From the NCBI GenBank assembly GCA_015522695.1, contig WALT01000013.1, positions 1-32,170 on the forward strand: a stretch of 32,170 nucleotides of DNA, read 5' to 3'. This document shows, in pieces, positions 27,549-30,761 of this stretch (positions are counted from its first letter, which is position 1; each line of letters opens with the position of its first letter). Both the position numbers and the translations under genes were made by a program. Origin of the DNA: Nitrososphaerota archaeon (GTDB lineage: Archaea; Thermoproteota; Nitrososphaeria; Conexivisphaerales; Conexivisphaeraceae). A model generated the notes under the pieces. That model was not told where the DNA came from. It saw only the letters and a list, made by a program, of their open reading frames with translations, and did not search any database.

Positions 27549-28805
27549 TCAATGGGACCTATATCTCAGCATCGCACCGAGCCCGCCAAAGCTCTTAAAC
27601 ATCTGCCCATACTCCGTCTTAGAGGAAACTATCTCGACCTTCGTGCCGGTCAGCTGCGCTTTGTCATAGATGTAATCGACGAGATCCAGCTGTCTATAGC
27701 TCCAATCCACGTTTCCACATCTAGGACATCTCCTTTGCATCTCCTCGGAGAGTAGGCCATAGACGTCCTTCACGTTCACGAACATCATCCTCTTATAGCC
27801 ACATCTATTGCATGTGAGCTCCACGACCTGGGTGTCGATATCCTCCGAAACCATCACCATGTCGGCAGCGCCGGCCTCGAGCGCCCCCATGACCTCGTGT
27901 AAACCATATGTAGCGAGTCCATCGGACCTACTGGCCTCTTTCAGGAACCCCTCGATGAGCGTTTTCTCCTCGATGAGCCTCGTGTCCCTCAATAGATCCT
28001 TAGCGCGCTCCAACGTCTCCCTAACTCCCTCCTCGCCGGAATATGATGTATCCGCAAGTCCGATCACCGCCTTCTGCAACCTATAATCCATGTACTCGCC
28101 CTTGTAGAATTCTTCCTTTGTGGGACCTGGGCCGCTTATGATGAGCTTCTTCACGGGATATTCCTCAAGGAGGGCCTTAACGGCATGTTTAGCCACGCGA
28201 TTGAAGAACTCCTCGAGCTCGGCTTCTCTGAGCCTCTCAAATCTCCTCGCCGACTGACCGCCCTGTCTATGCTTGCTACCGACACCTGAGGTTATCACAT
28301 CGACTACGGTTAGCATGTTGCCTCGTATGACCCCGATACCGGCCTCAGAGGAATCTATCGATATGACACCGATGACCTCCGTCTCCCTGATCATATCCCT
28401 GAGGATCTCCAGATGGAAATGGTCGTCGCACCTGTAGAGGAACGTATTGATGGATTTGGGGGGTACCACCTCATAGAGCACGAACTCCTCCAGCTCCTTA
28501 CCGGGCTTAGGTACAGCCCCACAGAATATGGCCAGCCCCGTTGGAGGTAACTTCTTGTAGAGCTTAAGCCTCTGCACGATCTTCGTCAACGCCCCCTGAA
28601 CGTGTGTCCTCGTCGTGTCGCTTTTTATGTTGGATGCGGTACTGTACTCATCCCTAAGTATGTTTATCACATCATGGACAGGTCTGGATGGAGGGATATA
28701 CAATGATACCAGCTCCGTCCCTCGACCCTTTATTCCTGAAAGCTCGGCGAGTAGCTTCCTTATCTTGTATAATGTGACGGAATCGTAGCCCCCCATATCG
28801 TCCAC
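27549..28805 (-). CDS. prf1: Peptide chain release factor aRF1
   Basis: Recognises all three stop codons. It has 418 residues: the N-domain with TASNIKS (NIKS at 59-62) reads the stop codon, the M-domain with KHRQGGQSARRFER (GGQ at 182-184) triggers peptide release, and the C-domain carries a four-Cys zinc module (CNRCGYKRM and CPRCGNVDW), as in other archaea. The GGQ glutamine is the expected target of the Mtq2-type methyltransferase at 18622. It is divergent from pyrH with a 51-bp shared promoter region, and followed by valS. Confidence 0.97.
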   Translation of the reverse strand: MDDMGGYDSVTLYKIRKLLAELSGIKGRGTELVSLYIPPSRPVHDVINILRDEYSTASNIKSDTTRTHVQGALTKIVQRLKLYKKLPPTGLAIFCGAVPKPGKELEEFVLYEVVPPKSINTFLYRCDDHFHLEILRDMIRETEVIGVISIDSSEAGIGVIRGNMLTVVDVITSGVGSKHRQGGQSARRFERLREAELEEFFNRVAKHAVKALLEEYPVKKLIISGPGPTKEEFYKGEYMDYRLQKAVIGLADTSYSGEEGVRETLERAKDLLRDTRLIEEKTLIEGFLKEASRSDGLATYGLHEVMGALEAGAADMVMVSEDIDTQVVELTCNRCGYKRMMFVNVKDVYGLLSEEMQRRCPRCGNVDWSYRQLDLVDYIYDKAQLTGTKVEIVSSKTEYGQMFKSFGGLGAMLRYRSH

Positions 28806-28824: not shown

Positions 28825-28834
28825 GCTTTTTATC
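28825..28834 (+). promoter_or_regulatory. TATA box of pyrH
   Basis: GCTTTTTATC is centred 27 nt before the GTG at 28857. This predicts a leaderless transcript beginning at the start codon. It lies in the 51-bp divergent spacer to aRF1. Confidence 0.55.
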
Positions 28835-28856: not shown

Positions 28857-29531
28857 GTGGGCGTGATAGTGGTCAAGGTGAGTGGTGAGGTCTTCGACAT
28901 GTCGAAGACCTCACCCGATTCCAGGATAACGGATGTGGCAAGACAGCTGGTGGATATAGCTGAAGAGGGCCGCAGGCTCGTCGCCGTAACTGGTGGGGGT
29001 AAGATGGCCAGACTCTACATAGAATTGGGAAGGAAACTCGGTGCGTCGGAGGCGGAGCTGGATGAGGTCGGGATCGAAGTGACTCGTTTAAATGCGCGCC
29101 TGCTCATTACCTCCTTGAGCGGCATAGCACATCCAGTAGTACCACGGACCCTAGATGATGTTCTACTGGCACATACGACGAGCAGGATCGTCGTGACCGG
29201 TGGATTTCAGCCTGGTCACAGCACCAATGCCGTCGCGGCCCTCATCGCTGAGGGGCTCAAAGCAGATCTCCTCATCAATGCGACTGATGTCGACGGCATC
29301 TACGATAAGGATCCAAAACTGTATAGAGATGCCAAGAAGTATAGTGTAGTACGCGTACAAGATCTTGAAAATATGATCCTATCTTATGAGTCATATGCAG
29401 GAACCTATGAGTTGATGGACATCACAGCATTGAAAATCGTAGCTAGATCGAAGATACCGACTATCATAACGAAATATACCAACATATTAGATGCCACTAG
29501 AGGGGAAGACGTCGGGACAAAGGTAATATAG
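28857..29531 (+). CDS. pyrH: UMP kinase
   Basis: Phosphorylates UMP to UDP. It is a 224-residue amino-acid-kinase-fold protein, the archaeal length. Motifs are VIVVKVSG (phosphate loop), VAVTGGGKMARLYIELGRKLGA, VVTGGFQPGHSTNAVAALIAEGLKAD, INATDVDGIYDKDPK and the C-terminal DITALKIVARSKIPTIIT. Between the phosphate loop and the first helix the protein reads EVFDMSKTSPDS, encoded by a perfect 32-bp palindrome (see the separate entry). The GTG start sits 27 nt from a TATA box. Confidence 0.95.
   Translation: MGVIVVKVSGEVFDMSKTSPDSRITDVARQLVDIAEEGRRLVAVTGGGKMARLYIELGRKLGASEAELDEVGIEVTRLNARLLITSLSGIAHPVVPRTLDDVLLAHTTSRIVVTGGFQPGHSTNAVAALIAEGLKADLLINATDVDGIYDKDPKLYRDAKKYSVVRVQDLENMILSYESYAGTYELMDITALKIVARSKIPTIITKYTNILDATRGEDVGTKVI
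28884..28915. repeat. Perfect 32-bp palindrome inside the pyrH 5' coding region
   Basis: The left arm GGTGAGGTCTTCGACA is followed immediately by its exact reverse complement, 16 bp each with no mismatch and no spacer. It covers codons 10-20 of pyrH, 27-59 nt downstream of the predicted transcript start. As DNA it is an ideal symmetric protein-binding site. As RNA it folds into a hairpin of at least 14 bp that the initiating ribosome would meet at once. Confidence 0.95.
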
Positions 29532-29556: not shown

Positions 29557-29772
29557 TTGCCGAAGCGTAACGTCGACTACATACCTCCGCATACCCATTG
29601 TAAAGTATGCGGCAAGCCCATACCGCTCGGCAAGGTTTATTGTTCTAAAGAGTGCATGGAAAAAGATATGAAACAACAAAAAAGAGCAAAAAGAATGATG
29701 CAGATATATATTATTTCGATATCTGCACTATTCGCAGCGCTCCTCATGTACTCGCTTTACGTATCGGCCTGA
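29557..29772 (+). CDS. DUF2116-like zinc-ribbon membrane protein
   Basis: A 71-residue protein: a treble-clef/zinc-ribbon N-terminus (HCKVCGKPIPLGKVYCSKECMEKDMKQQKRAKR, four Cys as CxxC and CxxxC) followed by one hydrophobic helix (MMQIYIISISALFAALLMYSLYVSA). Short archaeal proteins of this plan belong to the DUF2116 family, and no function is known to me. The TTG start gives MPKRNVDYIPPHTHC; no ATG is available upstream of the zinc ligands. It follows pyrH by 25 nt and is probably cotranscribed. Confidence 0.8.
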   Translation: MPKRNVDYIPPHTHCKVCGKPIPLGKVYCSKECMEKDMKQQKRAKRMMQIYIISISALFAALLMYSLYVSA

Positions 29773-30110: not shown

Positions 30111-30761
30111 ATGGTGATGGGCAAGGAGAAGGCGATACTGCGTGATATATACGAATATTACGCAACCCAAGAGAAGGCCACAGAGATGCTGCTCGAGGGC
30201 TTTAGACGGTACTTGAGCGATGGCGATGTGCTCAGCATCTATGAAGAGCTCGATGCAGTGGAAAAGAGGGCGGACGATTTGAGGAGGGGGCTGGTCGATG
30301 AGCTATCCAAAGGCGCCTATTTCGCCTTTTTGAGTGAGGACTTCATCGAATTGGCCAATACCATGGATGAGATCGCCGATAATTCAAAGGTAGTGGTAAA
30401 GTTGTTAGTGGAGTCAGGAGTGAGCGTCAGGGCCCTGACGCTGTTGACAGAGACCAGGATACTCACATTTTTAGAGGCTGTACTGAAGAGTGTGAGGATG
30501 TTAGGGGAGGCCATCGATGCGTTGAGGAAGGGAAAGAGGGGCCCGCTATTGGAGAAGATACGGTCGATCGAGCTCTACGAGGAAGAAGCTGATGGCGTGA
30601 AGGATGAGCTGATAAAGGGATTGTTCAAGAATAGAGGGAACATCGATGTGCTTGATATCGTGATAATTAAAGAGATGATCGATCTTTCTGACAACGTAGC
30701 CGACATAGCAGAGGACGCTGGCGACATTCTATTAAGCGTGCTGGCTAAAGGATACAGATGA
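30111..30761 (+). CDS. DUF47/PhoU-like regulator of the PiT transporter
   Basis: A 216-residue all-helical protein of the DUF47 family, the usual cytoplasmic partner of Pit phosphate permeases. Two PhoU-like repeats are visible: EELDAVEKRADDLRRGLVDEL … FIELANTMDEIADNSKVVVKLL, and IELYEEEADGVKDELIKGLF … KEMIDLSDNVADIAEDAGDILL, with the E-x-x-AD and D-x-x-D metal-binding clusters. It begins 20 nt after tRNA-Leu(CAA) and is followed 9 nt later by the PiT-like permease, so the two form an operon and the first gene probably controls the second. Confidence 0.88.
   Translation: MVMGKEKAILRDIYEYYATQEKATEMLLEGFRRYLSDGDVLSIYEELDAVEKRADDLRRGLVDELSKGAYFAFLSEDFIELANTMDEIADNSKVVVKLLVESGVSVRALTLLTETRILTFLEAVLKSVRMLGEAIDALRKGKRGPLLEKIRSIELYEEEADGVKDELIKGLFKNRGNIDVLDIVIIKEMIDLSDNVADIAEDAGDILLSVLAKGYR

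Follow-up and report, generated by a model that had tools for sequence, protein, structure and literature searches.

Early in the UMP kinase gene (pyrH) of this archaeal genome lies a perfect 32-bp palindrome. A template-switch mutation probably produced it, in a variable loop of the encoded protein where such a change could be tolerated. Alignment with homologous genes suggests that the 3' arm arose later, as an inverted copy of its 5' partner, and that it added codons to the gene. Perfect palindromes whose arms meet without a spacer recur across the genome, and their excess goes beyond protein and codon effects.

The palindrome in pyrH and its homologues

The window, the whole stretch of DNA analyzed here, is a 32,170-nt contig (C13) of a draft genome of 1.31 Mb in 34 contigs, estimated to be 95.5% complete. 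The features of the window that bear on the palindrome are the following:

27549–28805, minus strand: aRF1, the archaeal release factor (eRF1 domains 1–3), divergent neighbor of pyrH
28827–28834, plus strand: putative TATA-like element TTTTTATC, read from the sequence, ~27 nt upstream of GTG 28857
28857–29531, plus strand: pyrH, UMP kinase of archaeal type, 224 aa; open reading frame with a GTG start and an alternative start at 28863
28884–28899, plus strand: 5' arm GGTGAGGTCTTCGACA, encoding the conserved GxVFD that follows the K-x-S-G motif; putative template arm
28900–28915, plus strand: 3' arm TGTCGAAGACCTCACC, which matches the reverse complement of the 5' arm exactly and lies in a loop that varies and is prone to gaps; putative derived arm
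30423–30442, plus strand: second perfect palindrome without a spacer, arms of 10, within the window's DUF47/PhoU_div gene; same class of feature

An inverted-repeat scan of the window lists five pairs, of which 28884–28899 with 28900–28915 is the sole perfect one. Its sequence, GGTGAGGTCTTCGACATGTCGAAGACCTCACC, consists of two 16-nt arms that are 100% complementary with a spacer of 0 nt, exactly as a preliminary description of this DNA had it. The same description placed the palindrome in the early codons of a UMP kinase, and this also holds: the reading frame matches Pfam AA_kinase and solved uridylate kinases (best match 2j4j), and with GTG 28857 taken as the start, the palindrome spans codons 10–20 and encodes the peptide GEVFDMSKTSP. 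A leaderless start at this GTG is plausible given the TATA-like element upstream. Among named public genomes, there is a single relative, a ‘Thermoprotei archaeon’ at 46% protein identity. At the corresponding loci of two genomes of the same family, G001 and G003 (L004 and L005), ATG is absent just upstream of the pyrH match, and a leaderless TTG start is possible. Downstream of pyrH, the window also holds an imperfect inverted repeat at 29693–29733 (15 nt, 87%, 11-nt spacer).

With equal base frequencies, random sequence would be expected to hold ~7.5e-6 such sites over the length of the window and 3e-4 over that of the genome. The earlier verdict of ‘far beyond chance’ stands against random DNA but not against the genome's own background, in which four spacerless palindromes have arms of 15 bp or longer (17, 16, 16 and 15) within 693 kb.

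The site was compared with 40 pyrH homologues (loci L003–L019 and L026–L048, including the 17 relatives first compared, with the six partial or paralogous loci L020–L025 left out); the genus itself is represented by one genome. None of the 40 carries the symmetry, the closest being G003 with 8 of 16 positions paired, and no relative compared encodes a peptide identical to the palindrome-encoded stretch. The counter-case named in the preliminary description, an identical peptide in relatives that lack complementarity, therefore had no occasion to occur. The 5' arm is nearer than the 3' arm to all 40 homologues, with a mean identity of 0.53 versus 0.21 when gaps are counted as mismatches, and in the same alignment every homologue has 1–4 fewer codons across the stretch than this pyrH. 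Because of these two regularities, the 3' arm reads as the new copy. The higher identity of the 5' arm is partly expected under any origin, since it encodes the conserved GxVFD motif, and the 40 homologues are not mutually independent. The point that matters for pyrH, as far as the alignment indicates, is that the partner arm is located where the UMP kinase family is variable and gapped. The preliminary description had guessed well in calling this stretch variable. Its suggestion of an inserted repeat unit came nearest of the three readings it offered, in that codons appear to have been added by a local inverted copy, but the unit is not a mobile repeat. In G001 and G003, the position corresponding to the palindrome bears a cluster of four differences between the two genomes, which forms no palindrome and is one of four such clusters in 3.7 kb.

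Palindromic elements of Rickettsia are a family of related mobile repeats, whereas the pyrH sequence is single-copy. A mobile palindromic element of the Rickettsia type was rejected, as the genome holds one copy at up to three mismatches.

Spacerless palindromes in this and related genomes

The genome (G000) was sampled as 693 kb in stretches that include the window, of which 4,808 bases are N. Perfect palindromes without a spacer and with arms of 10 bp or longer occur 28 times in this sample; two second-order Markov runs yield 1.2 and 0.6. Three are GATATC tandem repeats, and the remainder have no common sequence; most of the 28 lie inside genes, of unrelated function. Perfect repeats with spacers of 1, 2, 3 and 4 nt number 4, 5, 2 and 6 in the same 693 kb, and spacers of 1–12 nt together yield 30 repeats versus 8.8 and 10.0 expected, an enrichment smaller than that of the spacerless class. 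Reading frames, defined as 534 script-found ORFs with a length of 150 aa or more (566 kb in total) rather than annotated genes, hold 21 such palindromes, again with arms of 10 bp or longer. In 60 synonymous-codon shuffles that preserve each protein and its codon usage, the mean is 1.05 and the highest count 4. Three of the 21 have arms of at least 15 bp, and the shuffles produced none. Imperfect palindromes are also in excess, with 11 sites at 12 of 13 pairs versus 0.8 expected and 33 at 11 of 13 pairs versus 11.6, while repeats with a 1-nt spacer are not in excess at 12/13 or 13/13 pairs. This surplus of degraded palindromes fits decay, and could fit selection as well.

The excess is weaker in the family relative G001, a single-contig genome, which has 7 palindromes versus 0.9 expected in reading frames and 10 versus 1.0 overall in 600 kb. 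G003, also of the family, has 3 versus 0 overall and 1 in reading frames, which is not above shuffles. Two genomes of the order together have one palindrome in reading frames, as do four of the class together; overall, these six archaea have 0, 1, 0, 2, 2 and 0 per 100 kb. G000 differs from them in reading frames with p = 0.0004 (Fisher test). Escherichia coli K-12 exhibits the opposite pattern, with 2 spacerless repeats versus 24 with spacers in 200 kb. G001 and G003 are ~92% identical over aligned stretches, and four of the ten palindromes in the G001 sample are comparable in G003. All four occur in both genomes, three of them perfect and the fourth pairing at 11 of 12 positions; no newly formed palindrome with arms of at least 10 was found among the four, which indicates that formation is not rapid.

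Probable template switching and competing readings

In the template-switch explanation, a growing strand would pause during replication or repair after the conserved 5' arm had been copied, and would re-anneal at a short self-complementary stretch, the center of which is now GACATGTC. Some 13–16 nt would then be copied back off the complementary strand or the strand's own nascent copy before it rejoined the original template, so that the adjacent loop received the 5' arm in inverted form and the gene gained a few codons in frame. The gene would have survived because such changes are tolerated in this loop, which follows the first conserved motif. The zero spacer would point to re-annealing with back-copying, since a strand that folds back must form a loop, which would appear as a spacer. 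Two features expected of such a product are found in pyrH: the pairing of the arms exceeds both chance and what protein and codon usage explain, and one arm appears ancestral, as the 5' arm is the closer one in 40 of 40 homologues, although as a conserved motif it would in part be expected to match them better. Within this explanation, the inferred elements are the strand switch, when it occurred, the enzyme responsible and the absence of a function for the pyrH palindrome. Passages of the yeast literature attribute a rise in such mutations to loss of flap endonuclease or RNase HII. Both are present in this genome, so these known causes are not indicated. The Rad50 hook scored over the cut-off in none of 20 genomes and is therefore uninformative; no reverse gyrase was found among eight of the longest ORFs scanned, a partial sample with no bearing on growth temperature. 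Primase-mediated microhomology joining, described for Saccharolobus in sections of PMC12019639, is a candidate mechanism only.

The preliminary description had put forward two functional readings, both of which fared poorly. One is an operator just 3' of the leaderless start, bound by a dimeric repressor of pyrH under pyrimidine control. The perfect two-fold symmetry would suit such a site, as would its location: a protein bound ~27–58 nt downstream of the predicted start could stand in the way of transcription. Usual archaeal operators, however, are shorter than 32 bp of exact symmetry, which was counted against this reading, and a search for the same 32-mer and its symmetry in the genome and its relatives, which the description had itself proposed, returned a single copy in the 1.31-Mb genome with up to three mismatches allowed. 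The inner 20-mer was not found in three other genomes of the family, again at three mismatches. The site is thus neither conserved at orthologues, with the symmetry missing from all 40 homologues, nor repeated at other genes, and many unrelated spacerless palindromes lie within other genes; we regard an operator as very unlikely. The other reading, a hairpin in the leaderless mRNA that tunes pyrH translation, draws on a predicted structure with a 14-bp stem and a 4-nt loop that begins 27 nt into the predicted transcript and, folded alone, has a free energy of −24.7 kcal/mol at 37 °C and −6.5 kcal/mol at 85 °C. None of the 40 homologues has the hairpin, so that nothing shows conservation, and the 20 other reading-frame palindromes in the sample indicate that a position near the start is not required. 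Despite its stability, the hairpin lacks specific support, and a role in translation seems very improbable.

More generally, selection at the DNA or RNA level could keep spacerless palindromes genome-wide, as cruciforms, mRNA hairpins or sites for symmetric DNA-binding proteins with loose sequence demands, with pyrH as one such case. The persistence of all four comparable palindromes in both G001 and G003 is in keeping with this, as are the mostly spacerless centering of the excess, the enrichment of imperfect palindromes and the stability of the RNA hairpin. Yet the palindromes have no common sequence, the majority lie in genes of unrelated function, an RNA hairpin under selection needs no zero-length spacer and the pyrH symmetry recurs in none of the 40 homologues, which leaves selection an unlikely account. 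An assembly or amplification fold-back might be suspected in a draft of 34 contigs, but the reading frame runs through the palindrome with conserved UMP kinase sequence on both sides, a fold-back would be expected to leave a long inverted tail, and the single-contig genome G001 likewise has an excess. An artefact is therefore extremely unlikely.

A broader form of the template-switch explanation, possible but doubtful in our estimate, is that the family has a continuing palindrome-making process. Strands would re-anneal at self-complementary DNA of 4–8 nt, giving spacerless centers rather than hairpin loops, and would copy short inverted copies back into genes, adding or changing codons and supplying conserved proteins with new loop sequence. 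Such a process would be a lineage-specific mutator signature, linked to a peculiarity in how DNA is replicated or its ends are repaired; primase-mediated microhomology joining, as described for Saccharolobus, would be one example.

Known systems and other palindromic genes

Several known systems resemble parts of this picture. Passages of a report on Nematomorpha mitochondria describe many perfect inverted repeats in protein-coding genes, with no evident function, for which its authors name template switching as one possible mechanism (PMC6649704). The likeness lies in multiple perfect palindromes in the genes of one genome, here 21 with arms of at least 10 in 534 ORFs. The differences, as far as these passages go, are that the hairworm repeats reach 284 bp, whereas the arms here are 10–17 bp and spacerless; that both arms there encode conserved residues, whereas only one arm does in pyrH (the threonine synthase gene is an exception); that imperfect repeats there are described as not in excess, whereas imperfect copies are enriched here; and that the host is a hairworm mitochondrion rather than an archaeal chromosome (PMC6649704). 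Rickettsia palindromic elements, mentioned in that report (PMC6649704), resemble the pyrH case in being palindromic DNA in frame within genes. Quasipalindrome correction, or short-range template switching, in which one arm templates the other, is described in parts of three reports as producing clustered changes and amino-acid replacements in genes (PMC8604942, PMC7202029, PMC5677150), and in yeast it alters proteins (PMC8604942). As in yeast, one arm here appears to be the template of the other. The yeast cases in these accounts are single events between close strains, spacer inversion included, in contrast to the standing genome-wide excess of spacerless palindromes here and the gain of codons in pyrH.

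Most bacterial genomes have palindromes above chance, with template switching discussed as a cause, according to sections of Huang and Mrazek 2014 (PMC4060949). The same sections describe a weaker excess in archaea that drops with growth temperature, and coding regions that are generally normal (PMC4060949). Against this trend, the archaeal genome studied here has a strong excess inside genes. Among open-licence papers, none was found to report that spacerless palindromes occur genome-wide in archaeal coding sequence. Template switching is already known from yeast, and palindromes in coding genes from hairworm mitochondria; what is unusual here is the strength of the excess, its spacerless centering and its archaeal host. 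If the template-switch explanation is right, perfect palindromes in genes should be taken for operators only with caution, and this archaeal lineage would carry an unusually strong trace of template switching compared with the weak archaeal excess in print. Close genomes of the family would permit direct measurement of the process, including the resulting protein change.

Of the 22 palindromes checked in ORFs of 150 aa or longer, only 5 have a homologue in the sampled DNA. In a glutamine-amidotransferase gene (arm 16), the 5' arm aligns with G002 (LAxxAL), and the 3' side is unlike G002 and one codon longer; alignments with G001 and G004 place the gaps differently and are less clear. A threonine-synthase-like gene (arm 13) has a quasi-palindrome of 7–10 of 13 pairs in six orthologues at 63–66% identity, relative to which the gene of this genome has S to A and K to R replacements, both towards perfect pairing. 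These replacements may be older, since the peptide AAYAARAG is encoded, with 11 of 13 pairs, by two of four homologues at greater distance, and occurs in the solved structure 2zsj too. On these alignments, both cases are compatible with template switching, the first with a gain of codons and the second without. The citrate synthase palindrome lies in a loop, at a two-codon gap relative to G001 and G003, and in the kinase-like and HAD genes the arm preference is weak. The longest spacerless palindrome in the sample, with arms of 17 (L096:3302–3335), covers residues 85–96 of a 786-residue beta-propeller (PF09826) ORF, for which no family homologue was found; G004 matches are partial and start at residue 99, past the palindrome. 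The longest near-spacerless inverted repeat in the sample, at L093:15625–15664, has arms of 19 around a 2-nt center.
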